The notes beneath the pieces were generated by a model that was not told the DNA's origin, ran no database searches, and was given only the letters and a program-made list of their open reading frames with translations. Below are positions 1,445-19,351 of a stretch of 22,167 nucleotides of DNA, piece by piece. The position numbers were made by a program, and so were the translations under genes. Numbering within the stretch: position 1 is the first letter of the stretch; every line of letters starts with the position of its first letter. The stretch comes from a virus: positions 1 to 22,167 of IMG/VR virus record IMGVR_UViG_3300025133_000654; one strand, 5' to 3'.

Positions 1445-1676
1445 AGCTGTTGAAGAATTGATTAAAGTGGCACAAGAACCTATTATAGATACAAAAGAAG
1501 ATATTTCTGCAGATAGATTAAAAAATGCAGCAGCTACTAAAAAATTAGCAATATTTGACGCGTTTGAAATACTACATAGAATAGATGAAGAAAAAGCTAT
1601 TTTAGAAAACAAACCTATCAAAGAAGTAAAAGAAGAAAGATCTTTTAAAGGTTTTGCGGAAGGAAGAAGCAAATGA
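1398..1676 (+). CDS. Small helical protein in the small-terminase position
   Basis: A 92-residue, mostly helical, basic-tailed protein. Residues 10-25 form an amphipathic helix (QAGHKAVEELIKVAQ), followed by an acidic linker. A second helical stretch (about 38-60) is rich in Ala, Lys and Leu, and the C-terminus is basic (SFKGFAEGRSK). The ATG lies inside the co-chaperonin gene, giving a 47-nt overlap in another frame. I keep this start because no later ATG exists in frame and the region right after the overlap is part of the first helix. Its stop overlaps the large terminase start as ATGA. The position directly before the large terminase and the small helical make-up fit a small terminase subunit that recognises DNA. 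No helix-turn-helix is clear, so this assignment is tentative. The gene itself looks real. Confidence 0.62.
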   Translation: MSIKKIKLNIIQAGHKAVEELIKVAQEPIIDTKEDISADRLKNAAATKKLAIFDAFEILHRIDEEKAILENKPIKEVKEERSFKGFAEGRSK

Positions 1677-3901
1677 GTTATCAACAAACATTATATAATG
1701 AAATAAAAGACCATATAAATCCTAAAATTTTAAAGAAAAATAATAGATTAAAAAAATGGAAATATGGATATAATTCTGATTATGATTTTATTGTTATAAG
1801 TAAAACAGGGGAAATTGGAGAAATCATTGAAATACAAAATCTCAAAATCGCTTTACCAACAGTTGTTACTCCGTATAAAAAATCAAAAAAAGAAAGTGAA
1901 CAATTTTGGGAAAAAAGAGAATATCCTAAAGAATTAAAAAGAATTAAAAGTAGGTTTGATTGGGATGAATATAGTGTAGAATTTAAAGAAAAATGGTACG
2001 ATTATATAGATGAAGAATTTAGACGAAGAGACGAAGGGTATTGGTTTTATAATAAAGGAAATCCTACTTATATCACTGGTACTCATTACATGTACCTTCA
2101 ATGGTCAAAAATTGATGTCGGAGCACCGGATTACAGGGAATCAAACAGATTATTTTTTATCTTCTGGGAAGCATGTAAAGCAGACACCAGATGTTATGGG
2201 ATTTGCTATCTTAAGAATAGACGATCTGGATTTTCATTTATGGCTTCGGCAGAACTGGTTAATCAAGCAACCATTTCATCTGACAGTAGATATGGGATTT
2301 TATCCAAAACAGGAGCTGATGCTAAAAAAATGTTTACGGATAAAGTTGTACCAATCTCGATTAACTATCCATTCTTTTTCAAACCCATCCAAGACGGTAT
2401 GGATCGTCCTAAAACCGAACTGGCATATAGAGTTCCAGCATCTAAACTTACACGTAGAAAATTGGAAGCAAATGAAGAGCTTCGAGAACTAGATGGATTA
2501 GATACAACTATAGATTGGAAAAACACAGGAGATAATAGTTACGATGGGGAGAAGTTAAAAATTCTAGCTCACGATGAAAGTGGGAAATGGGAAAGACCAG
2601 ATAATATACTAAATAACTGGAGAGTTACTAAAACCACCTTGCGATTAGGTAGTAGAATTGTAGGTAAATGTATGATGGGATCTACAAGTAATGCACTAGA
2701 CAAAGGAGGAGAAAATTTCAAAAAACTTTACAATGCTTCAGATGTTACCCAAAGAAATAAAAATGGACAAACAAAGTCAGGATTATATAGTTTATTCATT
2801 CCTATGGAATGGTCCTACGAAGGATACATTGATACTCATGGTGTACCTGTGTTCGATACTCCAAAAGAACATGTCAGAGGTATTGATGGATTACCTATCA
2901 CCATCGGAGTTATTGAACATTGGGAAAACGAAGCAGCAGGATTACGAAACGACCAAGATGGTTTAAATGAATTTTATAGACAATTTCCACGAACCACTAA
3001 GCACGCTTTTAGAGATGAAACTAAACAATCATTATTCAATCTAGTTAAAATATACGAGCAAATAGATTATAATGAAGAAATTCATAATATAAGCTCTGTT
3101 ACTAGGGGTAATTTTCAGTGGATTAATGGAATAAAAGATACTAGCGTGATATTCTATCCCAACAAAGATGGAAGATTTAATATAACATGGGTGCCAGAAA
3201 AAAAATTACAAAATAATGTAATATTAAAAAATGGAATAAGATATCCAGGTAATGAGTTTTTAGGAGCGTTTGGTTGTGATAGTTATGATATCTCTGGAAC
3301 CGTGGATGGTAAAGGATCTAATGGAGCATTACATGGTTTAACAAAATTCAGCTTAGAGGATTGTCCTCCTAATCACTTTTTTTTAGAATATATATCTCGT
3401 CCCCCTACTGCTGAAATATTTTTTGAAGATGTTTTAATGGCTTTAGTTTTTTATGGAATGCCTATTTTAGCAGAAAACAATAAACCTAGATTATTATATT
3501 ATTTAAGAAGAAGAGGATATAGAGGTTTTAGCATGAATCGTCCAGATAAAATATGGAATAAATTATCTGTTACTGAGAAAGAGGTAGGAGGAATACCAAA
3601 TTCTAGTGAAGATATAAAACAAGCTCATGCCGCTGCAATAGAAACTTATATAGAAAATGAAGTGGGATTGTTAAATAATGACACTTATGGAGATATGTAT
3701 TTTCAAAAAACGTTGGAAGACTGGGCAAAATTTAATATAAATAACAGAACAAAGCACGATGCTGCGATAAGTTCTGGTTTAGCTATTATGGCTTGTAACA
3801 GACTTAAATACAGACCAGTCGCTAAACGTAATAATACCCCAGTAGACTTAGGTATTAAAAGATATGATAATAAAGGATTAATTTCAAAAATAATAGAATA
3901 A
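1673..3901 (+). CDS. terL: Terminase large subunit (packaging ATPase and nuclease)
   Basis: This 742-residue motor protein translocates DNA into the prohead and cuts the concatemer. The ATPase half shows an altered Walker A at 181-189 (KNRRSGFSF): the lysine sits at the start and Phe187 replaces the usual GKS/T lysine, a variant known in large terminases. Walker B is LKILAHDE (Asp301, Glu302). A coupling-type motif MMGSTSN lies near 334-340. The C-terminal RNase H-like nuclease has its expected acids: Asp536 in GCDSYD, Glu601 in LAENN and Asp696 in TKHDAA. The N-terminal 150 residues are a long basic/aromatic extension, making the protein longer than many terminases (about 450-600) but similar to those of large Bacteroidota podoviruses. 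The start overlaps the preceding stop (ATGA), and the stop directly abuts the portal ATG. Confidence 0.93.
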   Translation: MSYQQTLYNEIKDHINPKILKKNNRLKKWKYGYNSDYDFIVISKTGEIGEIIEIQNLKIALPTVVTPYKKSKKESEQFWEKREYPKELKRIKSRFDWDEYSVEFKEKWYDYIDEEFRRRDEGYWFYNKGNPTYITGTHYMYLQWSKIDVGAPDYRESNRLFFIFWEACKADTRCYGICYLKNRRSGFSFMASAELVNQATISSDSRYGILSKTGADAKKMFTDKVVPISINYPFFFKPIQDGMDRPKTELAYRVPASKLTRRKLEANEELRELDGLDTTIDWKNTGDNSYDGEKLKILAHDESGKWERPDNILNNWRVTKTTLRLGSRIVGKCMMGSTSNALDKGGENFKKLYNASDVTQRNKNGQTKSGLYSLFIPMEWSYEGYIDTHGVPVFDTPKEHVRGIDGLPITIGVIEHWENEAAGLRNDQDGLNEFYRQFPRTTKHAFRDETKQSLFNLVKIYEQIDYNEEIHNISSVTRGNFQWINGIKDTSVIFYPNKDGRFNITWVPEKKLQNNVILKNGIRYPGNEFLGAFGCDSYDISGTVDGKGSNGALHGLTKFSLEDCPPNHFFLEYISRPPTAEIFFEDVLMALVFYGMPILAENNKPRLLYYLRRRGYRGFSMNRPDKIWNKLSVTEKEVGGIPNSSEDIKQAHAAAIETYIENEVGLLNNDTYGDMYFQKTLEDWAKFNINNRTKHDAAISSGLAIMACNRLKYRPVAKRNNTPVDLGIKRYDNKGLISKIIE

Positions 3902-6328
3902 ATGCAGATTAATACAACAGATTATAGTTCTTTTCCAGACCAGGTGGTACCTGAAGCTGAAAAAAGTACTTTAGATTATGGATTACAAGTTGCTCGAGCT
4001 ATTGAAGGTCAATGGTTTAGAAATTCCAGGGGAGGATTAGGTGCAGGTTATGCAAATGGAGGATATGCGGTTAATTTTAATACTTATCACACTTTACGAT
4101 TGTATGCTAGAGGTGAGCAACCAGTACAAAAATATAAAGATGAATTATCTATAAACGGTGATTTATCTTATTTAAATTTAGATTGGAAACCTGTTCCTGT
4201 AATTTCTAAGTTTGTAGATATTGTAGTAAATGGAATGTCTCAAAGAGTTTATGATGTTAGAGCTTTTGCATGTGATCCTGAATCTACTGAAAAAAGAACT
4301 GAATATGCTAAAAAATTACTTACAGATGTTAGAGAAAGAGAATTAACACAGCAAGTAAATGATGCTATAGGAATTGATATAAGATCAAAACCACAACAAG
4401 CATTAGGTTTAGAAAGCGAAGAAGAATTAGCTTTACATCTTCAATTGGATTATAAGCAATCGATAGAAATCGCAGAAGAAGAGTTAATTAGTAATGTATT
4501 AGAAAAAAATAAATTTGATTTAACTAGAAGAAGATTTTCACAAGACTTAGTTACATGTGGTATTGGTGCTGTTAAAACTAGTTGGAATAAATCAGAAGGA
4601 ATTGTTATAGATTATGTAGATCCAGCAAGTCTAGTTTATTCTTATACTGAAGATCCTAATTTTGAAGATATATATTATGTAGGAGAAGTAAAAAATATAT
4701 CTTTGCAAGATTTAAAAATGCAATTTCCTAACCTCACTACCGAGGAAATGGAACAAATTCAAAAATATAGAGGAAATGCAGAATACTTAAGAAATTGGAA
4801 TGGATATTATGATGGGCAAACAGTACAGGTATTATATTTTGAATATAAAACATATGTAGATCAAGTGTTTAAAATAAAAGAAACTAATACTGGTTTATTA
4901 AAAGCTTTAGAAAAACCAGATACTTTCAATCCCCCAAGTAATGATAATTTTGAAAAAGTATCTAGATCTATAGAAGTATTATATAGTGGAGCAAAAATTC
5001 TAGGACATCCATTAATGTTAGAATGGAAGATGGCAGAAAACATGACACGTCCTGTATCTAATAATACTATTGTTAGAATGAATTATGTGGTATGTGCACC
5101 GAGAATGTATAAAGGAAGAATAAATTCCTTAGTTAATAGAATAACTGGTTTTGCTGACATGATTCAATTAACTCATCTAAAACTCCAACAAGTATTAGCC
5201 CGTATTGTTCCCGATGGGGTTTATTTAGATATGGATGGTTTGGCAGAAGTTGATTTAGGAAATGGTACTAATTATAATCCTGCTGAAGCTTTAAATATGT
5301 ATTTTCAAACTGGTAGTGTCGTCGGGAGATCTATGACTCAAGACGGTGAAATGAATCATGGTAAAATTCCTATTCAAGAATTACAATCTTCTAATGGAGG
5401 CGCTAAAATACAATCATTAATACAAACTTATCAGTATTATTTACAAATGATAAGAGATGTTACCGGCCTTAATGAAGCTAGAGATGGTAGTACTCCAGAT
5501 AAAAATGCTCTAGTAGGTTTACAGAAACTAGCTGCTGCTAATTCCAATACTGCAACTAGACATTTAGTTCAAGCCATGTTATACTTAAGTTCTCGTATTT
5601 GTGAAAATGTAACATTAAGAGCAGCTGATTCTTTAAATTTCCCATTAACTAGAGAAGCGTTACAAGATAGTTTAAGTAGATATAATACTGCTACTTTAGA
5701 AGAATTGAAAAATTTAAACATCCATGATTTTGGTATTTATCTTCAATTAGAACCAGATGAGGAAGAAAAACAATTATTAGAACAAAATATTCAAATTGCT
5801 TTACAACAACAGCAAATTGATTTAGAAGACGCCATTGATTTAAGAGAGATTAATAATATAAAACTCGCAAATCAAATGTTGAAACAACGACGAACAAAGA
5901 AACAAGAAAAAGATCAACAAATAGCACAACAAAACATTCAAGCCCAAGCCCAAGCAAATGCAGAAACTGCTCAAAAAGCAGCGATGGCAGAAGTACAAAA
6001 AAATCAAGCTTTAGCTGAAAGTGAATTACAAATAGAACAAGGGAAATCTCAATTCCGAATGCAAGAAATGCAAACTAAAGGAGAAATTGATAAACAATTA
6101 ATGGCAGCAAAATTTGATTATGATCGTCAATTAAAATCAATGGATATTAATCAAGTTCGCCAAAAAGAGCAATTTATTGAAAATAGAAAAGATAAAAGAG
6201 CTAAATTAGAAGCTACACAACAAAGTCAAATGATGAATCAGCAGATGTTAAAAACTCCGCCGATTGATTTTGAAGACGGAGCAGAGGGTATAGGAGATGA
6301 ACCTATGACGCCATCAGCTTTAGAATAA
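3902..6328 (+). CDS. Portal protein with long Gln-rich C-terminal coiled coil
   Basis: An 808-residue protein placed directly after the large terminase (TAA then ATG with no gap), the usual place for the dodecameric portal that forms the DNA channel. The segment around 204-260 (FDLTRRRFSQDLVTCGIGAV, then strands with DYVDPASLVYSY) has the look of the portal wing/clip region: a helix, a conserved Gly pair and an alternating beta region. The 390-560 region is helical and hydrophobic, as expected for stem and crown-side helices, and includes TGLNEARDGSTPDKNALVG, which I associate with phage portals. Residues about 618-780 are a very long Gln-, Ala- and Lys-rich coiled coil, perhaps a barrel or crown extension. 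The size agrees with crAss-like portals (about 800 residues as I recall). The assignment rests on context plus these patterns. Confidence 0.82.
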   Translation: MQINTTDYSSFPDQVVPEAEKSTLDYGLQVARAIEGQWFRNSRGGLGAGYANGGYAVNFNTYHTLRLYARGEQPVQKYKDELSINGDLSYLNLDWKPVPVISKFVDIVVNGMSQRVYDVRAFACDPESTEKRTEYAKKLLTDVRERELTQQVNDAIGIDIRSKPQQALGLESEEELALHLQLDYKQSIEIAEEELISNVLEKNKFDLTRRRFSQDLVTCGIGAVKTSWNKSEGIVIDYVDPASLVYSYTEDPNFEDIYYVGEVKNISLQDLKMQFPNLTTEEMEQIQKYRGNAEYLRNWNGYYDGQTVQVLYFEYKTYVDQVFKIKETNTGLLKALEKPDTFNPPSNDNFEKVSRSIEVLYSGAKILGHPLMLEWKMAENMTRPVSNNTIVRMNYVVCAPRMYKGRINSLVNRITGFADMIQLTHLKLQQVLARIVPDGVYLDMDGLAEVDLGNGTNYNPAEALNMYFQTGSVVGRSMTQDGEMNHGKIPIQELQSSNGGAKIQSLIQTYQYYLQMIRDVTGLNEARDGSTPDKNALVGLQKLAAANSNTATRHLVQAMLYLSSRICENVTLRAADSLNFPLTREALQDSLSRYNTATLEELKNLNIHDFGIYLQLEPDEEEKQLLEQNIQIALQQQQIDLEDAIDLREINNIKLANQMLKQRRTKKQEKDQQIAQQNIQAQAQANAETAQKAAMAEVQKNQALAESELQIEQGKSQFRMQEMQTKGEIDKQLMAAKFDYDRQLKSMDINQVRQKEQFIENRKDKRAKLEATQQSQMMNQQMLKTPPIDFEDGAEGIGDEPMTPSALE

Positions 6329-6335
6329 CATAAAC

Positions 6336-6351
6336 TTATATTATATTATAT
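6336..6351 (+). promoter_or_regulatory. A/T-only 16-nt element (TTATA)3T before the scaffold gene
   Basis: TTATATTATATTATAT ends one nucleotide before the ATG at 6353, within a 24-nt gap after the portal stop. The same 16 bases sit at the same distance from the ATG at 9443. It could be a phage late promoter, a translation initiation element in a host that does not use Shine-Dalgarno pairing, or both. The exact shared length and spacing are what raise it above background A/T richness. Confidence 0.4.
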
Positions 6352-6352
6352 C

Positions 6353-7495
6353 ATGTCAACACAACAAGAACAAGAGGCTAAACCTCTAAAAGTAAAAAAA
6401 CCATCATTTAAATCCAAACGAGAAGATGATGCAGTATTTAAGGTAAACTTAACTAAAGATAAAAACGATGCCATTCCAGAGCGAAAAACAGAGGAAATAT
6501 CTATGGGCGAACCATCCGGAAATAGCAAGAGCGTGGACGCAAGCATACGGGTCGACACCAATAAAGCGGAAAGTAAGACCACTCAAGAAAAAGAAGTAAT
6601 TACTATAACCGAAGAAGTTAAAACACCAGAAAATAACACAACTATTACTCCACAACTTTCTACTCCAAAAATAGAAATACCAGAGAATATTGGAAAAGTT
6701 ATAGATTTTATGAAAGATACTGGGGGAACATTAGAAGATTATGTTAGATTGAATGCTGACTATTCTAATGTAGATCCAGATGCTTTATTAAGAGAATATT
6801 ACAAACAATCAAAACCTCATTTAACATATGATGAAATAGATTTTCATATGCAAGATTCATTTTCATACGATGAGGAAGATGATGAAGAGCGAGAAGTTAA
6901 AAGAAAACAACTTGCTGTTAAAGAAGAAATTGCAAAAGCTAAAAACTTTTTAGAAGATACAAAGAGTAAATATTATGAAGAAATCAAGTTGAGATCTAAT
7001 AATACTCCCGATCAACAAAAAGCAGTAGAGTTTTTCAATAGATACAATCAAGAAAAAGAAGCGGCAAATAAGCAACATGAAGTATTTGTAAACAATACTA
7101 AAGATTATTTAACTGATAAATTTGAAGGTTTCAAATTTGATATTGGTGATAAAAGTTTTAGATATAATGTTTCAAATCCAGAATCAATTGCTAATCAACA
7201 ATCTAATGTAGGTACATTTTTTAAGAAGTTCTTAAATGAAAAAGGTGCTGTAGAAGATTATAAAGGTTATCATAAAGCTATGTATGCTGCCAATAATGTC
7301 GATTCCATTGCGGAACATTTTTATGAGCAAGGTAAAGCCGATGCTACTAAAAATATAATAAGTAAATCTAAAAATATAAGTAATGACCCACGTCCTCAGG
7401 ATTCAGGTGAAGTATTTATTGGAGGATTAAAAGTTAAAGCAATTAATGGGGTTGATAGTTCGCGATTGAAAGTAAAATACAAAAATAAAAAATAA
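6353..7495 (+). CDS. Probable head scaffolding protein
   Basis: A 380-residue, hydrophilic, strongly charged protein between portal and major capsid genes, the standard scaffold position. Residues 1-105 are low-complexity and rich in Lys, Glu, Thr and Ser. Residues about 112-160 form a conserved-looking helical block (ENIGKVIDFMKDTGGTLEDY onward). An acidic run follows (DEEDDEERE, about 176-184), then a long Lys/Glu helix to about 250. The last part ends in a very basic tail (RLKVKYKNKK), reminiscent of the basic C-terminal helix-turn-helix by which scaffolds bind capsid protein. No protease motif is visible, so a maturation protease is less likely. Codons for about residues 40-78 are much richer in G and C than the rest (49% G+C at 6481-6580 against 31% at 6681-6780, counted by hand). 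The scaffold role is inferred from context and composition. Confidence 0.66.
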   Translation: MSTQQEQEAKPLKVKKPSFKSKREDDAVFKVNLTKDKNDAIPERKTEEISMGEPSGNSKSVDASIRVDTNKAESKTTQEKEVITITEEVKTPENNTTITPQLSTPKIEIPENIGKVIDFMKDTGGTLEDYVRLNADYSNVDPDALLREYYKQSKPHLTYDEIDFHMQDSFSYDEEDDEEREVKRKQLAVKEEIAKAKNFLEDTKSKYYEEIKLRSNNTPDQQKAVEFFNRYNQEKEAANKQHEVFVNNTKDYLTDKFEGFKFDIGDKSFRYNVSNPESIANQQSNVGTFFKKFLNEKGAVEDYKGYHKAMYAANNVDSIAEHFYEQGKADATKNIISKSKNISNDPRPQDSGEVFIGGLKVKAINGVDSSRLKVKYKNKK

Positions 7496-7500
7496 AAATT

Positions 7501-9000
7501 ATGAGTTTTGTAACAGGCGGGAGTTTTCCTGCATCCCTTATACCAGCTCAGCAAAGAATGGCCTTAAGCAGTAATTATATTGATTTCACAGGTACATCAG
7601 GCGGAAACTTTGCTCAGCAGTATTTACCAGAGCTTTACGAAGCAGAGGTAGAAAGATATGGAAACCGAACAATTGGAGGTTTCCTTAGAATGGTTGGCGC
7701 TGAAATGCCAATGACATCAGATCAAGTTGTTTGGTCTGAACAAAATAGACTACACGTTGCTTATAAAGCAGCGACAGTATCAGTTATTGGAGGAACAGAT
7801 GTTGATATAGAAGTATTAATTGACGTTGCAGCCGCTGGTGCTACTAATGGCGCAGTAAGAGTTGGACAAACAATTTTAATGGCAGATAATGCTACTGGAT
7901 TAATTGTTCAAAAAGGTTTAGTTCAAGCTCTTGGTACAACTACTCTCCCGGATGATACGTTATCTGTAAAATTATATGGTACAGCTACTAATGCTTTACC
8001 TACGGCAACAGATGGTATCAATTTATATGTTTATGGTGCTGATTTTGGAAAAGGATCTGTAGGAATGGATGGTTCAATTGAACCTCAATTCACTCAGTAT
8101 TCTAATAATCCAATAATTATCAAAGACAACTTTCAAATTAGTGGATCAGATGCTGCTCAAATTGGTTGGGTTGAAGTATCAACAGAAGATGGACAATCAG
8201 GATATTTATGGTATCTAAAATCTGAATCTGAAACAAGATTAAGATTTGAAGATTACTTAGAAATGGTAATGGTTGAAGCTCTTCCAATGGATCAAGGTAC
8301 ATATGTATCAACTGCTGAATATCAATTTGGTGGACCTGGTGTGCCTTCGGGTACTACAGGAACAGTTATTGCAGGATCAGAAGGATTATTTTCTGCTATA
8401 GAAGACAGAGGTAATGTATATTCTGGTTTTGCCGGTGCTGCTGCTCCAGGTTCTGGTGCTTTAGGTGATTTCGATGAAATCCTTAAAAATCTAGACAAGC
8501 AAGGTGCTATTGAAGAAAACATGCTTTTCTTATCAAGATCAACTGCTTTAGATTTCGATGATATGGTTGCTGCAATGAATGGAAGTTATGCTTCTACTCA
8601 AGCTGCTTCTTATGGATTATTTGAAAATGACGGTGAAATGGCATTAAACTTTGGATTCAATGGTTTTAGAAGAGGTTCTTATGACTTCTACAAAACTGAT
8701 TGGAAATATCTAAACGATGCTTCTTTACGTGGTCTATCAAATGAGATTGACGGGGTAATGATTCCAGCAGGAACTACAACAGTTTATGATCAAATTCTTG
8801 GATCTAATATTAGAAGACCTTTCTTGCATACAAGATATAGAGCTTCTGAGACAGAAGATAGAAGAATGAAATCATGGATTACTGGTTCTGTTGGTGGTGC
8901 TTATACTGATACGCTAGATGCGATGACTGTGAGTTTCTTATCTGAAAGATGCTTAGTGACTCAAGCTGCGAATAACTTTGTTTTATTCAAAGGAGCTTAA
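7501..9000 (+). CDS. Major capsid protein (HK97-fold type)
   Basis: A 499-residue protein directly after the scaffold-like gene (5-nt gap). The N-terminal block at about 38-86 includes YLPELYEAEVERYGNRTIGG, then FLRMVGAE and QVVWSEQNRLH. I recognise this signature from major capsid proteins of crAss-like and related Bacteroidota podoviruses. Residues about 95-185 form a beta-rich, Gly/Ala/Thr-rich stretch (VRVGQTILMADNATG and onward) that probably is an inserted surface domain. The remainder has the helix/strand alternation expected for the P- and A-domains and ends in a segment of short strands. The length fits that family (about 490-500). Codon use is slightly richer in GCT, GGT and GGA than neighbours, as expected for an abundant protein. 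There is no visible N-terminal protease or delta domain; scaffolding seems to be supplied in trans by the preceding gene. Confidence 0.87.
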   Translation: MSFVTGGSFPASLIPAQQRMALSSNYIDFTGTSGGNFAQQYLPELYEAEVERYGNRTIGGFLRMVGAEMPMTSDQVVWSEQNRLHVAYKAATVSVIGGTDVDIEVLIDVAAAGATNGAVRVGQTILMADNATGLIVQKGLVQALGTTTLPDDTLSVKLYGTATNALPTATDGINLYVYGADFGKGSVGMDGSIEPQFTQYSNNPIIIKDNFQISGSDAAQIGWVEVSTEDGQSGYLWYLKSESETRLRFEDYLEMVMVEALPMDQGTYVSTAEYQFGGPGVPSGTTGTVIAGSEGLFSAIEDRGNVYSGFAGAAAPGSGALGDFDEILKNLDKQGAIEENMLFLSRSTALDFDDMVAAMNGSYASTQAASYGLFENDGEMALNFGFNGFRRGSYDFYKTDWKYLNDASLRGLSNEIDGVMIPAGTTTVYDQILGSNIRRPFLHTRYRASETEDRRMKSWITGSVGGAYTDTLDAMTVSFLSERCLVTQAANNFVLFKGA

Positions 9001-9025
9001 TTATTAACATTTAAAAATAGAAACT

Positions 9026-9370
9026 ATGGCTTATATAAAAATAAAAAACAACGCCAACGGCGCTGGCTCTACAATAGCAACAGTAGCAATAGATGGATGT
9101 ACTGAAACAATAATAGATGTAGATCTTCCAGTGTTAGCAGTGGATGATACGCTTCCCGCTTTTACGGTTAAGGTAACTAACAACGCTGGATCTTCTGGTG
9201 AAGATTGTGATATCACTGTTGATGGTACTATTACTATGGCAGATATATATAACACACTAAATGCAGCGGTTGAAGCTGGTTTAGCTGATCCTTATCATAT
9301 ACCTACCGTTAGTGGAATCGTTGATTCTGATGGTGGAATAAATCCAATAACAGTAATAACTGCTCCGTAA
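9026..9370 (+). CDS. Small beta-rich protein after the capsid gene, candidate decoration protein
   Basis: A 114-residue acidic protein with alternating hydrophobic residues (IATVAI, TETIIDVDLPVL, FTVKVTN, CDITVDGTITM), suggesting a small beta-sandwich, followed by one short helix (DIYNTLNAAVEAG). It has two cysteines and no signal peptide or membrane helix. The ATG lies 26 nt after the capsid stop behind an A-rich leader. A strong rho-independent terminator begins 20 nt after its stop, so it shares a transcript end with the capsid gene and is probably expressed at a similarly high level. Position, size and composition fit a head decoration or head-fibre protein. I recognise no family; another minor virion protein is possible. 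Confidence 0.7.
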   Translation: MAYIKIKNNANGAGSTIATVAIDGCTETIIDVDLPVLAVDDTLPAFTVKVTNNAGSSGEDCDITVDGTITMADIYNTLNAAVEAGLADPYHIPTVSGIVDSDGGINPITVITAP

Positions 9371-9390
9371 TACGGGTAGATAAATTATCT

Positions 9391-9418
9391 AAGACCCCTT
9401 TTATTAGGGGTCTTTTTT
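9391..9418 (+). terminator. Rho-independent terminator after the capsid/decoration genes
   Basis: Stem AAGACCCC (9391-9398), 8-nt loop TTTTATTA, stem GGGGTCTT (9407-9414), ending in a run of six T (9413-9418). The eight base pairs match perfectly and contain four G-C pairs in a row, very unusual in this A/T-rich DNA. It sits 20 nt after the 114-residue gene and 25 nt before the next ATG. Confidence 0.93.
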
Positions 9419-9425
9419 AAAACAA

Positions 9426-9442
9426 TTATATTATATTATATT
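9426..9442 (+). promoter_or_regulatory. A/T-only (TTATA)3TT element, second copy
   Basis: TTATATTATATTATATT directly precedes the ATG at 9443. Its first 16 bases are identical to 6336-6351 and end at the same distance (one intervening base) from the start codon. Because a terminator ends only 8 nt upstream, this is one of the few places where a promoter for the 9443 gene could lie, unless it is served by read-through. Confidence 0.45.
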
Positions 9443-10213
9443 ATGAAAACACAAGAAATAGAAAATAAACCTCCTGTTGAAAAATGGGAATATAAAGATA
9501 GAAATTACTATCTTATGCACAATAAGATGCCTTTAACTTATACTTTACCTACAAGGCATTCTCGTAAATATCCTTTAGTATGGTTTGATTCAGAAAAAGG
9601 TTATGAAAGAGAATTGCGTTACGCGACTAATCATCCAAGTATTTTTGTTGATGAACAAAAAGGTCAAGTAACATTGAAGCATGTAGTATTTGAAAAAGGA
9701 CACTTAAGGGTTCCTAAAAACAAAAGAAATTTACAAGAATTTTTAGCTCATCACCCACATAATGGTTTAATATTTTTAGAACATGATGCGGAGGTAGTAG
9801 CTGAAGATGAATTTGATAAATTAGAAATAGAGTTAGCCGCAGCTAATTTAGCTTATGAAATGGATGTTGATACAGCAGAAGCTTTAATGAGAGTGGAAAT
9901 AGGATCTAAAGTAACTAATTTAAGTTCAAAAGAATTAAAAAGAGATTTACTTATATTCGCAAAACGCAATCCTAGACTTTTCTTAAATTTAGCTCAAGAT
10001 GAAAATATATTGTTACGTAACTTTGCGATTAGAGCAACGGAAGCAAATATTATTAAACTAGCTGATGATCAACGCACTTTTAAATGGGCTAGCAATGGTC
10101 GTAAATTAATGAGTGTTCCATTTGATGAAAATGCTTATTCAGCAATGGCTGCTTGGTTTAAAACAGATGAAGGTTTAGAAGTTTATCGATCAATCGAGAA
10201 AAAACTTAAATAA
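9443..10213 (+). CDS. Conserved-looking phage protein of unknown function, insulated by terminators
   Basis: A 256-residue soluble protein. The N-terminal part (15-110) is rich in aromatic, basic and beta-forming residues (YYLMHNKMPLTYTLPTRHS, RELRYATNHPSIFVDEQ) and closes with HHPHNG at 103-108. An acidic helical linker follows (about 112-150). The C-terminal part (about 150-256) is helical with LKRDLLIFAKRNPRLFL and then RTFKWASNGRKLMSVPF, a strand-turn-strand that could belong to a winged-helix-like fold. I recall similar proteins in the head regions of marine phages, without a known role. Terminators lie 25 nt upstream (9391-9418) and 12 nt downstream (10225-10256), so it looks like a single-gene transcription unit in an otherwise polycistronic region. 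A DNA- or RNA-binding or dosage-sensitive assembly role is possible but not shown. Confidence 0.74.
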   Translation: MKTQEIENKPPVEKWEYKDRNYYLMHNKMPLTYTLPTRHSRKYPLVWFDSEKGYERELRYATNHPSIFVDEQKGQVTLKHVVFEKGHLRVPKNKRNLQEFLAHHPHNGLIFLEHDAEVVAEDEFDKLEIELAAANLAYEMDVDTAEALMRVEIGSKVTNLSSKELKRDLLIFAKRNPRLFLNLAQDENILLRNFAIRATEANIIKLADDQRTFKWASNGRKLMSVPFDENAYSAMAAWFKTDEGLEVYRSIEKKLK

Positions 10214-10224
10214 CAAGTGATACT

Positions 10225-10256
10225 AAAGGGTGGCTTAACCGCCATCCTTTTTTTTT
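10225..10256 (+). terminator. Rho-independent terminator after the 256-residue gene
   Basis: Stem AAAGGGTGGC (10225-10234), loop TTAACC, stem GCCATCCTTT (10241-10250) with one G-T wobble, running into nine T (10248-10256). It is 12 nt after the stop codon and 17 nt before the next ATG. Confidence 0.92.
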
Positions 10257-12215: not shown

Positions 12216-15200
12216 ATGGCTAACGAGTTAAAAAGTACGTTTCTAAGATCTAAAATGAATAAAGATCTAGACGCAAGAATATTACCTCCCGGTGAATATC
12301 GTGATGGTGAAAATATTGCTATAAGTAGATCAGAAGGTGCAGATGTTGGTGCTTTGGAAAATATTCTTGGAAATAAATTAGTATCAGATTTTGGTATAAC
12401 TGCCATTGGAGTTGAGACTATAGGTATGTATACGGATAATGGAAATAATAGAATTTTTCTATTTATGACTAATTATACTGATAGTTCAAGTGATCAATTA
12501 AGTAATAGAGCATCTGTAGATTCCTATTGTTCTATTATTGTATATGATTTTGATGATGAAAATTATGAAGTATTAGTAGAAGGTAGTTTCTTAAATTTCT
12601 CTAAAACTCAACCTATATATGGTATTAATTTGTTAGAAGATTTATTATTTTGGACAGATGATAGAAATCAGCCTAGAAGAATAGATATATTAAAAGCTTT
12701 AGACGCTCCCGCTACGAGTCCAAATCCCTATTATCAACTAGAAGAAAATATTTCTGTAGCTAAATATTATCCTTTTTCTACTCCAGAAACTTATGAGGAG
12801 ATAACTGTTACAGTTAAAGCTATTACTACAGTATTAAATTTTGATGGTAGTAACTTAAATGCAGCCGCAACTGGCCTAGGCACAATACCATTTGTACCTC
12901 CTGTGGATTATCCTCAAACCAAATATAATACTATTTGTGAAATACAAGGAGATTTACCTAATATAAAATTGCACCCGGGATTAAAATTTTATGTAAAAAG
13001 TTCTACTCCTAATGGAGGATATGGATCTTTAGATACGTTTACTACGTGGCCTTTTTATAATGAAATAAAAAATTATCCAATAGAATGGGCAATGCAATCT
13101 CTGCATGGAGGAGCACCTACTCCATTTCCATGGCCCATGTATGATATGAATTCAGCCCCTAATCCTCCTAGAGCAGAATATGAGGAAGAGTCTGGGTACA
13201 GCGATAGATGGATGAGTGTATCTAAAGAATATGCTAGTAACCCTAATGCACTTTTTAGAGCAAATACCCCGGGTGGGCCAATAACTTCTAAAGATGATAC
13301 TGCAACAGGAGCCACTCAAGATTTACATTCCTTAGATTATCAAGAAAATTATTTAAAATGGTTTTATCCTAATATACCATTTTTAGATACTAGTACTGGA
13401 GAAGAATGGGAAGGGGAAGTGGAATTAGTATTTATTGTACCAAAATTAAGGAATAAAACAGATAGATGGTTACCTTCTACTTATCGAATTAGACTAAATG
13501 ATATTGAACAGGCAGATATTACCACAGATTTAGCATATGCTCCGGAAAAAGGATTAGCTAGTCAAGGATATCATGAAGATGGAATGCCTGCTATTGGTTT
13601 AATTGCCACATCTCCAAACGCTCAATGGCTTCCAAGAAATACTTTAGGATCTATTAGTGGAATAAATGAAGCTTGGTTAGCAAATGAAATGGTTTTAATA
13701 GCGGGCACTACTAATACAGTAAATTATTTAACGGATTATCAAAAGTCTGTTGGATTAGGATTACTTAATGTTACTTTAAACCCTTTAAATGGTTATGGAA
13801 TTGGACCTAAATTAGGACCTGCTATAACTACTGCCCCAGGATACACTATACCTTTAAGAACTTATGCTAAATGGTATTTTCAACCAGGTATGAAAATTGA
13901 TTGTCCTTTATTCACTGACCCTAATGTAACGCTTGTTATAGATCAAATTTTTCCTAATGGGGCTTTTCCTGATAATACAGGTCCAGATTCCAATCTTGGT
14001 ACATTTTTAATATCTGTTCATGGTGAAGATAGAGATGGAAATTTTCTAACACATTGGGTTACTCCTGATATGGAAGAGTATTTGTATGATGGATCATATG
14101 GAGGGATATATTTAGATTTATCTTTTCCTAATCCTTACTATGAACAGAATTTTGGTGGAGACACTTTTTACTTAGATGAAAAATTTTGTAGATTAGCATA
14201 TAGATATAAATTTGATAGTGGAGAATATTCTTTAATCTCTCCTTTCACTCAATGTTTATTTCAACCTAAAAACAAAGGGTATTATTTAAAAGGTAAAAAT
14301 AAATGGGATTATGATACCGCAGGAGTTGCTTTTTTAACAGTAGGAGATGCTGAACCCACTAGTGATATTGAAGATGTTTCTCAAACTACACTTAATAAAC
14401 TATACGAAAATTCATTAGAGCAAGTCCAGATTCTTATAGAAAGCCCGGTCATAGGAGTAGATAATATTCCTTTTAATGAAATAGGTGAAAAATTAAAAAT
14501 AGAATCATTAGAAATAATATTTAATGAATCAGATAGTACTGCGCTAAAAGTTCTAAAATCTATCCCTGTTTCAGATCCAGCAATAACAACTAATGCTACT
14601 AATGTATTTACTTACACTTGGGAAGGAGATAAACCTTATAGTACTTTACCAGCTAAAGAAGTAGTAAGAGTATCTGATAAAGTTCCTATTAAAGCCTTAG
14701 CTCAAGAAATAGCAGGGAATAGAGTGATATATGGGAATTTTGTTAATAGACATTCGTCACCAGAGTTTTTAAATTATGACATAGGGATAAGTAGGAAATA
14801 TACAGTAGATGATGAATTTACTAGTTTTTCTACCGAATCTTATCCTAATCATACTTTAAAGCAAAATAGAAGTTATCAAGTTGGAATAGTATTATCAGAT
14901 AAATATGGAAGACAATCAGATGTTATATTAGCTCCGTCTGAAATTAGTACATTAGAAGCAAATTCTCAAATCTTCAGTGGTGATACATTTAAAGCTAAAT
15001 ATTTAACAATAGAAGAGGCTGTAGATGTACTTCCTCAAGGGCGTAATATAACTGACTGGGTAGGCAATAGTATTAAAATATTGTTCAATGATGTTATTCC
15101 TAAAGAAATCGCAGGGTTAGATGGATATCCTGGGCTATATACAGATCAAGGTGGAGTGGTTAATGTTGTTGTAAATAATGGAGGCGTTGGTTATACAGCA

Positions 15201-17168
15201 GCTAAAAACGTTCCTACTACAACGCTCTCATCCTTAGGTGTTGGATTAACCGTAGATATTACAGAAACGGGAGGTATTATAGATGGAATATTTATTAATC
15301 AACCAGGTAAAGGATATGAAGTAGGTGACACGGTCAATGTAAACCAAGATGGAAATGTTTCCGCTATTTTAGAAATTACAGAAACTTCAGCAGCTAATCC
15401 TTTAGGATGGTATTCTTATAAAGTAGTAGTAAAACAACAAGAGCAAGATTATTATAATTTATATCTTCCTCAAATACTTAATGGTGAACCTTTGTCTGAT
15501 CCTGGGGTTTCACCTCCTTATCTTAACCGCGTAGGTGTTGAAAGTAAATTTGTTTTCTCAACTTTAGGAGACAATATAAACAAAATCCCTAGAGAAGTTA
15601 ATGAAAGTAATCAATTTGTAGACTATGTAACTAGTAAAACAAAATTATTTCCTAGAGTTAGTCAATTTGGAGGAGAACAATCAACGTGGGGGATTTTTGG
15701 AGTAGGTCTTTCTTCATGGGGTAGCAGCACAAATATTAAAACTGGAAATGTATTTAATGATGAAAATGCTGATGGAGTAGTTAATTTAGGATCATTTAAT
15801 AATATATATAACATAGATCCAGCGACTCCTCCAAGTTATAGTCTTTTGCAATATATTTTATATAAACAACAAGACAATCCGTATATAACAATAGGTACTA
15901 ATAGCCCTGGTAGAAGTCCTTTTTTACTATCATATTTATATTCTCCTGGGGGAATTGCTGGGTTATTTTATGATGGTGCTGAAGTTAATTATGATGGTTA
16001 TATAGAAACTACTGGAGTTGGTACAACTCATTATAGTGGTTCATCTAGCGCTATATCTCAAGGAGCATTTAACAGCGGTATAGGGGTTGTTGAAACATCT
16101 CCTTTTGTATCTAAATTAGATATTTTTTACGAAACCTCAACTAGTGGTAAAATAAATGATTTAAATTATTTAATTGAAACTAATGCTGACGAAAATATTC
16201 CTTATGATTTAAGAATTGAAAACGCTCTATGGACAGAAAATCTTGATCCATTATATTGGAGTTTGTGGAGAATTAACGGCTTACCTAGCCCTGTTCCTGT
16301 AGCTGGTGCTGATCCTTGGATATCTAAAATAACTCCTCAGAACGCCTTAGGATTAACTATACCTTTAGCAGACGTCGTTTCAGTTGATATGTCAGTGGTA
16401 GATAATTTAGGTGTAGATAGAAGTAATGAGTTTTTAATATCAAATAATGTATCTGGTACTAGTACTTATGGTATATATTTAGACAATGGGCAAGATGGTG
16501 GTTTAACATATTTAGAAAGTCCTTCACAGGCGCATGATTTTACGTTTACAATTACAGTAGAAACATTGGCAGAAATACCTACCGATCCAAACAATGTAAA
16601 AGTATTTAATTTTAGTAGAAGTTATACTAATGCACGACCTGACTTATCCCAATCTGGATCAAACCCTAGAGGAGGACCTGCACCACTAGACCCACCAATT
16701 CTTAAAGCTGATGAAACAGGAATAGTATGGGGAAAGATAATAGATCCAACAGGAATGAGTGGACCTTGGGGTACAAATATTGCTGCGGTTAACGGAGGTA
16801 TGCGGACGTGGTATAATACTATTGGAGGAATCCCGGGATTGGGGTTACAAGAAGATATTGCTCAACAATTAAAATGGAGTATTATAAGTTGTATAAATCA
16901 AACGGATTTACAGGATTATAAAAATAACATTTCTTTCACTCAAGGAAGTAATGGATACATAACTAATCCAAACCCACCAGGTAATCCACAACAGTGGCAA
17001 AATGAGCAAGCTATTCAAGTAGATACTCCACTTCCTGCGGGAGATTACCAAGTAGTATATCAAATCATTGATGCAAACAATAATGATAGTGAGGGTGGTC
17101 AAATAATATATGAATACCCAACCACTGAAGGATTTGGTCCTTTGCAATTCACTATCGATCCTGTGTAA
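12216..17168 (+). CDS. Giant tail nozzle / 'muzzle'-type structural protein, part 1
   Basis: At 1650 residues this is the largest protein here. The N-terminus has the signature SKMNKDLDARILPPGEYRDG, then AISRSEGADVGALENILGN, and INLLEDLLFWTDDRNQPRRI near 135-155. I recall this pattern from tail-stabilisation/nozzle (muzzle) proteins of crAss-like and other marine podoviruses; it suggests beta-propeller blades. Around 655-685 it continues with CRLAYRYKFDSGEYSLISPF, and around 834-905 with NRVIYGNFVNRHSSPEF and LKQNRSYQVGIVLSDKYGRQ. Residues 981-1057 are a separate GxGY-type beta domain also found in the next protein. The last 120 residues look like an Ig-like or beta-sandwich domain (GDYQVVYQIIDANNNDSEGG). 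It probably forms the tail tube or nozzle under the ring proteins. A 29-nt gap, not a frameshift, separates it from the next gene. Confidence 0.74.
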   Translation: MANELKSTFLRSKMNKDLDARILPPGEYRDGENIAISRSEGADVGALENILGNKLVSDFGITAIGVETIGMYTDNGNNRIFLFMTNYTDSSSDQLSNRASVDSYCSIIVYDFDDENYEVLVEGSFLNFSKTQPIYGINLLEDLLFWTDDRNQPRRIDILKALDAPATSPNPYYQLEENISVAKYYPFSTPETYEEITVTVKAITTVLNFDGSNLNAAATGLGTIPFVPPVDYPQTKYNTICEIQGDLPNIKLHPGLKFYVKSSTPNGGYGSLDTFTTWPFYNEIKNYPIEWAMQSLHGGAPTPFPWPMYDMNSAPNPPRAEYEEESGYSDRWMSVSKEYASNPNALFRANTPGGPITSKDDTATGATQDLHSLDYQENYLKWFYPNIPFLDTSTGEEWEGEVELVFIVPKLRNKTDRWLPSTYRIRLNDIEQADITTDLAYAPEKGLASQGYHEDGMPAIGLIATSPNAQWLPRNTLGSISGINEAWLANEMVLIAGTTNTVNYLTDYQKSVGLGLLNVTLNPLNGYGIGPKLGPAITTAPGYTIPLRTYAKWYFQPGMKIDCPLFTDPNVTLVIDQIFPNGAFPDNTGPDSNLGTFLISVHGEDRDGNFLTHWVTPDMEEYLYDGSYGGIYLDLSFPNPYYEQNFGGDTFYLDEKFCRLAYRYKFDSGEYSLISPFTQCLFQPKNKGYYLKGKNKWDYDTAGVAFLTVGDAEPTSDIEDVSQTTLNKLYENSLEQVQILIESPVIGVDNIPFNEIGEKLKIESLEIIFNESDSTALKVLKSIPVSDPAITTNATNVFTYTWEGDKPYSTLPAKEVVRVSDKVPIKALAQEIAGNRVIYGNFVNRHSSPEFLNYDIGISRKYTVDDEFTSFSTESYPNHTLKQNRSYQVGIVLSDKYGRQSDVILAPSEISTLEANSQIFSGDTFKAKYLTIEEAVDVLPQGRNITDWVGNSIKILFNDVIPKEIAGLDGYPGLYTDQGGVVNVVVNNGGVGYTAAKNVPTTTLSSLGVGLTVDITETGGIIDGIFINQPGKGYEVGDTVNVNQDGNVSAILEITETSAANPLGWYSYKVVVKQQEQDYYNLYLPQILNGEPLSDPGVSPPYLNRVGVESKFVFSTLGDNINKIPREVNESNQFVDYVTSKTKLFPRVSQFGGEQSTWGIFGVGLSSWGSSTNIKTGNVFNDENADGVVNLGSFNNIYNIDPATPPSYSLLQYILYKQQDNPYITIGTNSPGRSPFLLSYLYSPGGIAGLFYDGAEVNYDGYIETTGVGTTHYSGSSSAISQGAFNSGIGVVETSPFVSKLDIFYETSTSGKINDLNYLIETNADENIPYDLRIENALWTENLDPLYWSLWRINGLPSPVPVAGADPWISKITPQNALGLTIPLADVVSVDMSVVDNLGVDRSNEFLISNNVSGTSTYGIYLDNGQDGGLTYLESPSQAHDFTFTITVETLAEIPTDPNNVKVFNFSRSYTNARPDLSQSGSNPRGGPAPLDPPILKADETGIVWGKIIDPTGMSGPWGTNIAAVNGGMRTWYNTIGGIPGLGLQEDIAQQLKWSIISCINQTDLQDYKNNISFTQGSNGYITNPNPPGNPQQWQNEQAIQVDTPLPAGDYQVVYQIIDANNNDSEGGQIIYEYPTTEGFGPLQFTIDPV
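15156..15386 (+). repeat. GxGY-type beta domain in the 1650-residue tail protein (copy 1)
   Basis: Residues 981-1057 contain two half-repeats, NNGGVGYTAAK and INQPGKGYEVGDTV, separated by a Gly-rich strand. The second half is close to INQAGSGYVSADTV in the following gene (18278-18538). The unit looks like an inserted beta module, often seen in phage structural proteins and perhaps used for glycan or cell-surface contact; that role is not shown. Confidence 0.6.
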
Positions 17169-17197: not shown

Positions 17198-19351
17198 ATG
17201 GCAGCAATTGTAGAAGTAGATTATTTTAATTCCTTTTGGACAAAAAGAATTCACACTGGAGCACCATGTACTTCTGATCTTGATGAACTTATAGTGCCCG
17301 GCTTTGGTAGTGTTAGTCCTAGATTAACTTCAAGTACATCAACATACCCTGGTCCAGTTAGTTTTGGAGATGCTATAACAGGTTTACAAAACCAAAATTT
17401 AGTTGGAGATAGCTCAGCAGGTGCACTTAGTGATGATGACGACAAATGGCCAGCATGGTGGAATAGTGCAGAAAAACAAAAGCTTAGAGAAGGTTATTTT
17501 ATTGAAGATAGCAGAATTAGAGGAGGATATGGAAATACTCAAGTAAATTTAGGGGTTAGAGCTTATATAAATGAAGATGATCCAACTAGTCAAAGAAGAT
17601 TTGCTTCTTTAATTTATTCAGGACCATATAATGGTTTAACAGGCTTTAATGAAACCAATGTATTTTCTGTTGGAGAAAGTATAATTAAATCAGTTGATCC
17701 TGCTTATAGATCTATTCAGAAATTATATGCAGATGATACTAACTTGTTAATTCTGCAAGAAAATAAAAGTAGTTATGCTTTAATAGATAAAGATGCTATT
17801 TATTCTGCCGAAGGTTCTGGAACTGTTACTTCTACTAATTTAGTTATAGGTCAAGTAGTTCCTTATTTAGGTGAATATGGTATTAGTCAAAATCCAGAAT
17901 CTTTTGCTACATTTGGTTTTCAAAAATATTATGTAGATAAAGATAGAAGTACAGTAATGAGGTTGTCTAGAGATGGGTTAACTGAAATTGCTAACTATGG
18001 AATGGTTGATTATTTTAGAGATCAGTTAGGAGAGATTGATAATTCTTTTAAATTATATTATACCACAGCGACTGTAGTAAGCGCTAGCGGTCTTACGTCT
18101 ACGTTTACTATTGAAAACCCAGATCACGAATTAGAAGTAGGATCAGAGATATTCACTACAGTTGATGGAATTAATTATACACCTACAGGATCATATGTAG
18201 AAAATATAACAGATTTAGGTGCAAATCAATTTACTATTGATTGTAAACCTGCTGTTAATCTAATTGTAGCAGGAGCAGTAACTAATTTAAGTATCACGAG
18301 CGCAGGAACAGGATATGTAGCGGGTTCTGGTACAAATGACACTACGGTACCTATTGCGCCTACTCCTGGAATAGGTGTGGGACTTACTATAGATTGGACT
18401 TCTAATGCGCTAGCACCTAATGAATTAACCAGTGTAATTATTAATCAAGCTGGATCTGGATATGTTTCAGCAGATACTGTTACTTTGTCAGGAGTTGTAG
18501 TAACTACCGATGCTGTTATTACTGTAACTGCTACCCCTACTATACCAACAATTAAATTAGGTAGTTATAAAAGAGGTAGAATTTTAGGAGGTTATGACAT
18601 CTACTCTAAACATTATATTACATCGTTACAAACAGTTCCTGCGTTTTATAGTACTTTACCTAATACTTTTCAAACATTATCGTTTGATGAGCAAATAAAT
18701 GGATGGGTTAGTAGATATAGTTATAAACCAACCACTTTAGATAGTTTAGAAAATACTTATTATACAACTGATACGTATAAATTATATAAACAATTTGATG
18801 ATACTGTTGCTAATAAAAGAGGTTATTTCTATGATAATGCTTACGCCCCATCTTCAGTAACGTTTATCGCTAATGGAGAACCTACTACTAGCAAAGTGTT
18901 TCAAACTATTTCTTATGAAGGATCTAGTGGATGGAATGTACTGTCTTTTGATGGAGATTTTGAAGGAGAAGATTTCAGAAAATTAAATGGACTAATGGAA
19001 GAGTATGAGCAATACCAAGATCAAACTACAGTTGTGTATAGTTATTTAGAAGGAAAGTATGAACTAAGTAACCCTAGTAAGACTGGTGTTTTAGCTCAAG
19101 CACCTCCATTTGCTCACGCTGGATTTAATAGAAAAGAAAATAAATACGTAGCAAATTTAGTACAAAAAATGACTGACGAAACCGATCCTTCTACTTATCC
19201 ACCTAGACCAGGTGAAATTATATTTGGAAATACAATGTCTGGAATAAAAGGATTTTATGCTACAATAACAATGATAACAGATTCAACAACTGAGGTTGGT
19301 GGCGAAAAAGAATTATTTAGCGTCGCGTCGAAAGTTGTTAAATCATCTTAA
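17198..19351 (+). CDS. Tail nozzle / 'muzzle'-type structural protein, part 2
   Basis: A 717-residue protein. It begins with VEVDYFNSFWTKRI, and after a Ser/Pro/Gly-rich linker shows EGYFIEDSRIRGGYGNTQV (about 102-120). Then come RFASLIYSGPYN, FNETNVFSVGESI, IQKLYADDTNLLILQENKSS, DAIYSAEGSGTVTS and YYVDKDRSTVMRLSRDGLTE. I recall this ordered set of motifs as a conserved block of large tail (muzzle-type) proteins in Bacteroidota and marine podoviruses. It suggests a beta-propeller. Residues 361-447 are a GxGY domain shared with the preceding protein. The C-terminus ends KGFYATITMITDSTTEVGGE and a short strand. It lies 29 nt after the 1650-residue gene and probably assembles with it into one tail nozzle. 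In some relatives the two parts may be one polypeptide; that would need comparison. Confidence 0.75.
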   Translation: MAAIVEVDYFNSFWTKRIHTGAPCTSDLDELIVPGFGSVSPRLTSSTSTYPGPVSFGDAITGLQNQNLVGDSSAGALSDDDDKWPAWWNSAEKQKLREGYFIEDSRIRGGYGNTQVNLGVRAYINEDDPTSQRRFASLIYSGPYNGLTGFNETNVFSVGESIIKSVDPAYRSIQKLYADDTNLLILQENKSSYALIDKDAIYSAEGSGTVTSTNLVIGQVVPYLGEYGISQNPESFATFGFQKYYVDKDRSTVMRLSRDGLTEIANYGMVDYFRDQLGEIDNSFKLYYTTATVVSASGLTSTFTIENPDHELEVGSEIFTTVDGINYTPTGSYVENITDLGANQFTIDCKPAVNLIVAGAVTNLSITSAGTGYVAGSGTNDTTVPIAPTPGIGVGLTIDWTSNALAPNELTSVIINQAGSGYVSADTVTLSGVVVTTDAVITVTATPTIPTIKLGSYKRGRILGGYDIYSKHYITSLQTVPAFYSTLPNTFQTLSFDEQINGWVSRYSYKPTTLDSLENTYYTTDTYKLYKQFDDTVANKRGYFYDNAYAPSSVTFIANGEPTTSKVFQTISYEGSSGWNVLSFDGDFEGEDFRKLNGLMEEYEQYQDQTTVVYSYLEGKYELSNPSKTGVLAQAPPFAHAGFNRKENKYVANLVQKMTDETDPSTYPPRPGEIIFGNTMSGIKGFYATITMITDSTTEVGGEKELFSVASKVVKSS
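18278..18538 (+). repeat. GxGY-type beta domain in the 717-residue tail protein (copy 2)
   Basis: Residues 361-447 carry ITSAGTGYVAGSG and INQAGSGYVSADTV in the same two-half arrangement as residues 981-1057 of the upstream protein. They interrupt an otherwise propeller-like sequence. Similarity is clear at protein level but only scattered at DNA level, so the copies are old or were acquired independently. Confidence 0.6.

Follow-up and report, generated by a model that had tools for sequence, protein, structure and literature searches.

An A/T-rich element abutting the start codons of two genes that flank the capsid gene in an uncultured marine phage lineage: a candidate late promoter

Organization of the locus

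The window analyzed here is the whole 22,167-nucleotide stretch of IMG/VR record IMGVR_UViG_3300025133_000654, a 22-kb virus record that carries packaging and head genes. Two identical copies of the 16-mer TTATATTATATTATAT, hereafter the element, lie at positions 6336 to 6351 and 9426 to 9441, each separated by a single base (C6352 and T9442) from an ATG codon (positions 6353 and 9443, respectively), as reported in the initial annotation. The first ATG opens the gene preceding the major capsid protein (MCP) gene, referred to below as the first gene, and the second opens g6, which follows a terminator-like hairpin (Table 1). No other exact copy is present in the window. Allowing two mismatches or fewer, five matches were obtained for 0.60 expected, and none of 100 shuffles reached five; two of these matches are self-overlaps and one is intragenic (position 18048). 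Dinucleotide shuffles of the window produced the 16-mer followed by NATG in 0/1000 cases and the exact 16-mer in none, which rules out a chance origin of the two copies.

Table 1. Features of the window around the two copies of the element
Feature	Positions	Strand	Remarks
Terminase large subunit	1673-3901
Portal gene	3902-6328	+	phrog_6547, E 3e-138; P22_portal match
Element copy 1, TTATATTATATTATAT-C-ATG	6336-6355	+	At the start codon of the gene preceding the capsid gene; slot conserved in relatives
First gene (headed by copy 1), 380 aa	6353-7495	+	Putative scaffold, by position only
MCP gene	7501-9000	+	phrog_13704 (virion structural protein), E 8.5e-90, and position; without the element
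g5, accessory gene, 114 aa	9026-9370	+	Slot between MCP and terminator
Terminator-like hairpin and T tract	9391-9418	+	Directly upstream of copy 2
Element copy 2, TTATATTATATTATAT-T-ATG	9426-9445	+	At the start codon of g6; slot conserved in relatives
g6 (headed by copy 2), 256 aa	9443-10213	+	Conserved family; phrog_34748, phrog_16922
Second terminator-like hairpin	10225-10256 (hairpin 10225-10250)	+	Precedes g7, which is without the element

The portal stop codon and the ATG of the first gene are separated by 24 nt. The designation of the first gene as a scaffold gene in the initial annotation agrees with its position before the capsid gene, but no PHROG or Pfam family matched the protein, so that the name is positional only; the genes found in this slot in phage phi38:1 and in the elemo phages are annotated "structural protein." A fold search with the g6 product returned nothing at an E value of ≤0.001. 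In phi38:1 and elemo, the g6 slot is annotated merely "hypothetical," most of its neighbors being labeled "structural." The location of copy 2 behind a terminator was borne out: a hairpin with a 9-bp stem (positions 9391 to 9414; −15.1 kcal/mol; z, −3.94) is followed by a T tract running to position 9418. Further virion genes lie downstream of g6.

Conservation of the element and gene specificity

Relatives were sampled as 80 IMG/VR loci encoding a capsid relative (the best 80 of at least 600), which together with the window formed 72 representatives at 95% DNA identity. The start of each gene was taken as the most upstream ATG that did not overlap the previous gene, a rule by which some leaders may be misplaced; locus L039, in which the g6 start was misassigned, was excluded from the matrix and from some of the counts. 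The core TTATATTAT, which may include the AT of the start codon, was found between positions −30 and +3 in 55/71 first-gene leaders and 62/63 g6 leaders. The 16 remaining first-gene leaders all contained the TATAATAT form (e.g., TATAATATCATATCATG), and the single g6 miss was L039, the contig of which has the element before a g6-like N terminus (L159). Elsewhere, the core was detected in 0/58 portal, 0/71 MCP, 1/52 g7, 0/43 g8, 0/37 g9, and 1/24 g10 leaders; the looser A/T leaders previously noticed at the other genes of the window are thus also found across its relatives. The pooled matrix of 132 leaders gave the lineage-wide consensus TATWATATYATATYATG, with C mainly at positions −1, −6, and −15 and a number of pentamers that varies, mainly two before the first gene and three before g6.

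Clusters of TTATATTATA were counted in 81 sequences, 127 on the forward strand and 9 on the reverse strand. Among the forward clusters, 96 were assigned to the two genes, 1 to g7, and 30 to no gene; 23 of the latter read as the same leader with an ATG and 7 are intragenic. The element was retained among phages with capsid proteins down to ~55% identity to that of the window. A large lineage of uncultured marine phages is therefore characterized by this conserved element, located at two genes that flank the capsid gene. The variable number of pentamers is what repeat slippage would produce, and the element could in principle be functionless low-complexity A/T sequence maintained by slippage or by common descent. 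This explanation is exceedingly improbable in view of the conservation to ~55% capsid identity at two separate sites, the strand bias, and the fixed register with respect to the ATG.

The element was not equally frequent away from start codons. In each of ten long contigs (61 to 71 kb), the two best sites were those of the first-gene and g6 slots, with scores of 20.2 to 29.5, whereas no other site exceeded 19.6, a score reached away from any called start; among the other called starts, the maximum was 17.9. The gene caller marked 19 of the 20 top sites as starts, the remaining one lying ~60 nt beyond the MCP match.

Searching IMG/VR for TTATATTATATTATAT-N-ATG retrieved at least 120 stretches, of which 103 newly numbered loci were examined. 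All of the 109 examined sites belong to the lineage: 85 lead into g6, 22 lead into the first gene, and 2 lead into products resembling the same two proteins. The 20-mer can accordingly serve as a metagenome marker for the two late genes of this lineage. The same search with NNATG spacing retrieved 28 stretches; only 2 belong to the lineage, and these are also the only 2 followed by an open reading frame of at least 60 aa. Together, these counts (109/109 versus 2/28) indicate that the distance to the ATG is nearly fixed, although exceptions exist. Under a strict expression, the leader abuts the ATG in 67/71 first genes and 53/63 g6 genes.

Translation context of the element

According to PMC6847099, Flavobacterium johnsoniae favors A at positions −3, −6, −12, and −13 for initiation. 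In the first-gene and g6 leaders, A is present at −3 (100 and 97%) and −13 (99 and 92%) and is avoided at −6 (1 and 0%) and −12 (1 and 5%). The MCP leaders have A at all four positions (96% at −3, 88% at −13, 71% at −6, and 96% at −12). The element does not, therefore, conform to the Kozak-like context of the Bacteroidota. It does not contain a GGAGG-like Shine-Dalgarno motif either, since G does not exceed 1% at any of the 17 positions from −17 to −1, and no significant structure was found in the leader RNAs (z, −0.82 and −1.03). The initial annotation had proposed a phage-specific late promoter or a translation enhancer. A general enhancer was rejected, since the element is missing from MCP (0/71) and from almost every other gene tested and since A is avoided at −6 and −12; the promoter alternative is considered below.

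Apparent replacement of a Bacteroidota promoter motif at the first-gene slot

A sister set of 80 loci was retrieved with the capsid protein of the uncultured phage MW202828 and supplemented with four named relatives. In a capsid tree obtained by a quick method, the element and sister sets form two clades (support, 99 and 96), with one change each. None of the examined leaders of the sister loci and of the four named relatives contained the element. In the sister clade, TAnnTTTG, the Bacteroidota promoter motif, was found upstream of 67/71 first genes (four isolates included), 70/74 g7 genes, and 4/81 g6 genes. In the element clade, the 182 nt from −200 to −18 of the first gene contained TAnnTTTG in 4/71 cases, in comparison to 25/58 for an equal stretch inside the portal gene. 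The same upstream stretch contained the early motif described below in 0/71 cases and ATAATAT-type boxes in 2/71, and no other tested motif was found in more than 2/71. TAnnTTTG is absent from the element itself, and only 3/71 first-gene and 2/63 g6 leaders hold it between −80 and −1. The median gap between the portal gene and the first gene is 48 nt in the sister clade and 26 nt in the element clade. At the first-gene slot, the element thus looks like a positional replacement of TAnnTTTG.

The sister clade has ATG-abutting leaders of its own. Leaving out the three isolates other than MW202828, a leader ending in TCAA, TCTA, or TTAA was present at 47/73 first genes and 42/78 g6 genes, in comparison to 3/54 portal, 0/81 MCP, 0/71 g7, and 1/61 g8 genes. 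In MW202828, the two best starts for this leader are again those of the first gene and g6 (18.3 and 17.7; next, 13.1). The sister leader was nonetheless rejected as the same two-gene device because, in each of five sister contigs scanned, one or the other of these starts was equaled or outscored by that of another gene. Pentameric leaders of the (TYAAA)n type abut the ATG of several sister genes, some of them located just after TAnnTTTG (loci L188 to L267; contigs G087, G096, G097, G105, and G109).

These features bear on the possibility that the element acts at the level of translation. In this view, the (TTATA)n RNA adjoining the AUG would serve as a translational operator or start-site leader. 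An RNA-binding protein of phage or host origin, or the ribosome, would attach to it and thereby tune initiation on both mRNAs, with promoters located further upstream and read-through of the terminator for g6. The gene 32 operator of phage T4, in which AU-rich leader repeats beside the start control translation, provides a precedent. An operator would account for the fixed register, for the A at −3 in nearly all leaders, for the five-base periodicity (lag-5 identity of 0.59 and 0.68 versus 0.45 and 0.50 in shuffled sequences), and for an ATG-abutting pentameric leader shared by the first gene and g6 of the sister clade, even though only the first gene has TAnnTTTG there, these two genes being also the best leader starts of MW202828. 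However, the sister leader is not specific, as other genes matched or exceeded one of the two in 5/5 contigs, some just after TAnnTTTG. In addition, MCP never carries the element, A is avoided at −6 and −12, and no other tested promoter motif was seen upstream of the first gene. This is the strongest of the alternatives, and we consider it rather unlikely.

Other promoter motifs and a phage sigma factor

In the ten long element-clade contigs, TAnnTTTG is not enriched upstream of genes (6/231; shuffle mean, 6.95). Expectation-maximization motif searches of plus-strand upstream regions yielded no more than a weak motif (width 14); at widths 20 and 28, the output was noise from coding sequences. 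A weaker plus-strand motif, gtGTAAtaATaa, precedes several other late genes of these contigs and may represent a second class of late promoters. Early genes on the minus strand (G048, G084, G043, and seven more contigs; L390 to L429) are preceded by a strong bipartite promoter-like motif, ACAAnnTAAATACGA-N9-GATAATA, which is unlike TAnnTTTG. GATAATA was found 36 times for 6.2 expected, and the paired-box expression matches each contig at 4 to 9 places on the minus strand and at 0 or 1 on the plus strand. The distance from GATAATA to the ATG ranges from 3 to 47 nt in the same genomes. The GATAATA box and the TATAATAT form of the element have an ATAATA core in common.

Profile searches of 23 records (21 long element-bearing contigs, MW202828, and Maribacter phage Panino) revealed Sigma70 region 4 in four of them. 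The four proteins, of ~250 aa, matched Sigma70_r2 with E values of 2e-7 to 9e-5 (above the cut-off in two); region 4 was below the cut-off in all four, one being above it in another search. All four matched PHROG 351, "RNA polymerase sigma factor" (E, 8e-23 to 1e-12), and a predicted model (pLDDT, 76.7) aligned with sigma-A chains, including Thermus sigma-A (Foldseek E, 2.5e-6; TM, 0.30). These matches place the protein in the sigma70 family, with regions 2 and 4 and a predicted sigma fold. In the one genome examined in detail, the gene belongs to an early/middle cluster, where it is read from the minus strand; its companions code for a helix-turn-helix-like protein, an Erf annealing protein, an exonuclease, and a primase/helicase.

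The sigma factor accompanies the element. It was detected in 4/5 element-bearing contigs of at least 55 kb, and the profile search found it in 0/4 whole isolate genomes lacking the element at these slots and in 0/23 sister-clade contigs, seven of which are at least 55 kb long. Conversely, a sample chosen by sigma factor (the best 80 of 414 sigma loci; 50 contigs tested) contained at least one element with one mismatch or fewer in 50/50 contigs, versus 17/50 for a reversed-pattern control. All 50 contigs also encode a capsid relative, in one case as an end fragment. A site lies 0.9 to 2 kb upstream of MCP in 46 contigs, just downstream in 40, and at both locations in 37; contig G078, with a site at neither location, carries a second MCP fragment at its opposite end, ~1.2 kb past its site.

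The element might also be a promoter with another reader, such as the host polymerase with another host sigma factor or an unrecognized phage polymerase, the phage sigma factor serving other late promoters. The lack of TAnnTTTG enrichment in the element clade indicates that other specificities are at work, a second plus-strand motif exists, and the AR9 virion polymerase is known to use AT-rich promoters from which RNA starts 6 nt downstream. On the other side, no phage polymerase appears among the PHROG matches shown for 58/68 called proteins of one genome (25 of 27 families in one list). The T7-type RNA polymerase profile PF00940 matched 0/23 records, but the control was likewise unmatched, so that this search provides no evidence either way. 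Another reader appears improbable.

Proposed interpretation as a start-codon late promoter

We hold with about even confidence that the element is a late promoter at which RNA synthesis would begin at the ATG or within ~3 nt or less of it, probably upon recognition by the phage sigma factor. A −10-like core, TATWATAT, occupies positions −14 to −7 relative to the ATG, and is followed by six further bases, mostly A/T, before the A of the ATG is reached. If TATWATAT acts as a −10 box with the usual spacing, RNA would start at that A or ~3 nt or less before it, thereby generating leaderless or nearly leaderless mRNAs. The messages concerned would be those of the putative scaffold-capsid unit and of g6, just past the terminator. 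The likely reader would be the host RNA polymerase core associated with the lineage-encoded ~250-aa sigma factor produced from the early/middle region, which the phage represented by the window presumably also carries. Leaderless initiation would explain the rigid register, since a leadered promoter need not keep its distance to the ATG, and the 24 nt that separate the terminator T tract from the g6 ATG in the window leave too little room for a leadered promoter. Four lines of evidence favor the promoter half of the initial proposal, namely, the specificity for two genes, the presence of TAnnTTTG at the first-gene slot of the sister clade, the absence of any other tested promoter motif upstream of the first gene, and the accompanying sigma factor.

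Several observations weigh against this interpretation. Models based on translation only also account for the fixed register. Two strong sites per genome are few for a dedicated late sigma factor, and the motif seen at other late genes (gtGTAAtaATaa) is weak and differs from the element. A scan of the region for sigma70-type promoters (−35 and −10 hexamers 16 to 18 nt apart) returned 18 matches for 21.1 expected; 9-of-12 matches end at positions 6347, 6354, and 9444, within this region devoid of excess. Among 36 element-bearing contigs chosen regardless of sigma, mostly fragments, the profile search found the factor in only 6, the 4 long contigs mentioned above included, and none was seen in the window, a 22-kb fragment without an early/middle region. 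The search of the sister clade had no positive in the same run, although the same profile did match in element-bearing contigs. Since each of the two sets, element and sister, corresponds to one clade, the association between sigma factor and element represents one evolutionary event rather than fifty. At g6, the element does not replace TAnnTTTG, which counts against a simple promoter story: sister g6 genes also follow a terminator, yet they rarely have this motif (4/81). Sister g6 and element-clade g7, the latter after the hairpin at 10225 to 10250, follow terminators without a recognized promoter, indicating that terminators at these locations do not force the presence of a promoter. The argument of the initial annotation that a new promoter would be needed behind the terminator was therefore abandoned as unreliable, although copy 2 does follow one. 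Finally, leaders exceed 10 nt in 87% of the predicted transcripts of F. johnsoniae, according to PMC6847099.

A broader scenario can be put forward tentatively, and we regard it as doubtful on balance. In a marine phage lineage with Bacteroidota-type hosts, the host TAnnTTTG promoter before the capsid genes would have been swapped for a start-codon promoter recognized by a sigma factor of the phage itself. A single unit of 17 to 20 nt, present twice per genome, would combine the promoter, the transcription start, and the AUG, and the capsid messages would be leaderless. If this is true, late infection would move translation towards leaderless initiation.

Comparison with known systems

In mycobacteria and Deinococcus, promoters of leaderless genes have a −10 box a few nucleotides before the ATG, as in the layout proposed for the element. 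These promoters are general features of the hosts and T4 gene 32 is a single autoregulated gene, whereas the element marks two genes in a single phage lineage. T4 late promoters have the −10 sequence TATAAATA. The element has TATWATAT instead, abuts the ATG, and provides two strong sites per genome. Background on recognition at T4 late promoters and on the AR9 and phiKZ promoters was taken from PMC5312081 and PMC2988020. As described there, T4 late promoters (gp55/gp33/gp45) resemble the promoter proposed here in being simple, with recognition confined to a downstream site, in depending on a phage sigma-family protein, and in driving late genes. The T4 protein gp55 resembles sigma70 in domain 2 alone, whereas the factor described here matches Pfam regions 2 and 4. 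The element does not belong to the T4 type, since its consensus, TATWATATYATATYATG, differs from TATAAATA and the sigma factor is not limited to domain 2.

Bacteroidota housekeeping promoters (TTTG or TAnnTTTG) hold the first-gene slot in the sister clade. They initiate 4 to 5 nt past the −7 box and produce a leader; the element lacks TTTG and its proposed start is at the ATG. The promoters of the AR9 and phiKZ phage polymerases share with the element a long, rigid, AT-rich consensus. In the literature cited above, AR9 early promoters read AAATATATATTAT-6N-G(+1), with the core-to-start spacing that we propose for the element, and phiKZ late promoters read TATG. Those two phages have multisubunit polymerases of their own, whereas the scan of one genome of the present lineage revealed none; what these phages do have is a sigma factor.

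No description of the element was found in the literature searched, the search for sequence strings covering part of the matching papers, which contained only the early-motif string. Late promoters read by phage sigma factors are already known; the start-codon-fused form present twice per genome would be new if the promoter reading holds. For a large lineage of uncultured marine phages, the finding provides a regulatory signature together with a phage sigma factor that matches it. Reading the element as a promoter predicts the starts of the capsid transcripts to within a few bases and would allow leaderless translation to be tested in a bacterial phylum where Shine-Dalgarno sequences are seldom used.

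Relatives, hosts, and accessory genes

The named relatives are the elemo Flavobacterium phages, Cellulophaga phages such as phi38:1, Maribacter phage Panino, and the uncultured MW202828, all with capsid proteins less than 60% identical to that of the window. The lineage looks Bacteroidota infecting, with mixed labels for the contigs of metagenome-assembled genomes that bear MCP relatives: 15 of the 25 are labeled Bacteroidota and 10 otherwise (Pelagibacter, Aliivibrio, Woesearchaeota, Maricaulis, and others). A capsid relative is also present in L465 (CP070801.1), a 1.05-Mb record labeled as the chromosome of an Aenigmatarchaeota archaeon, which suggests a chimeric assembly.

The stretch between the capsid gene and the terminator is an accessory-gene slot. 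The distance from the capsid stop codon to the g6 start (positions 9001 to 9390 in the window and the same slot in relatives) ranges from 56 to 2062 nt and reaches at least 200 nt in 34/62 cases; g5 itself is present in 2/81 sequences, the window included. Some members encode their own GroEL and/or GroES chaperonins (L398, positions 14833 to 16395 [G048]; L186, positions 3122 to 5012; L187, positions 13089 to 13637; and L273, positions 1246 to 1788).

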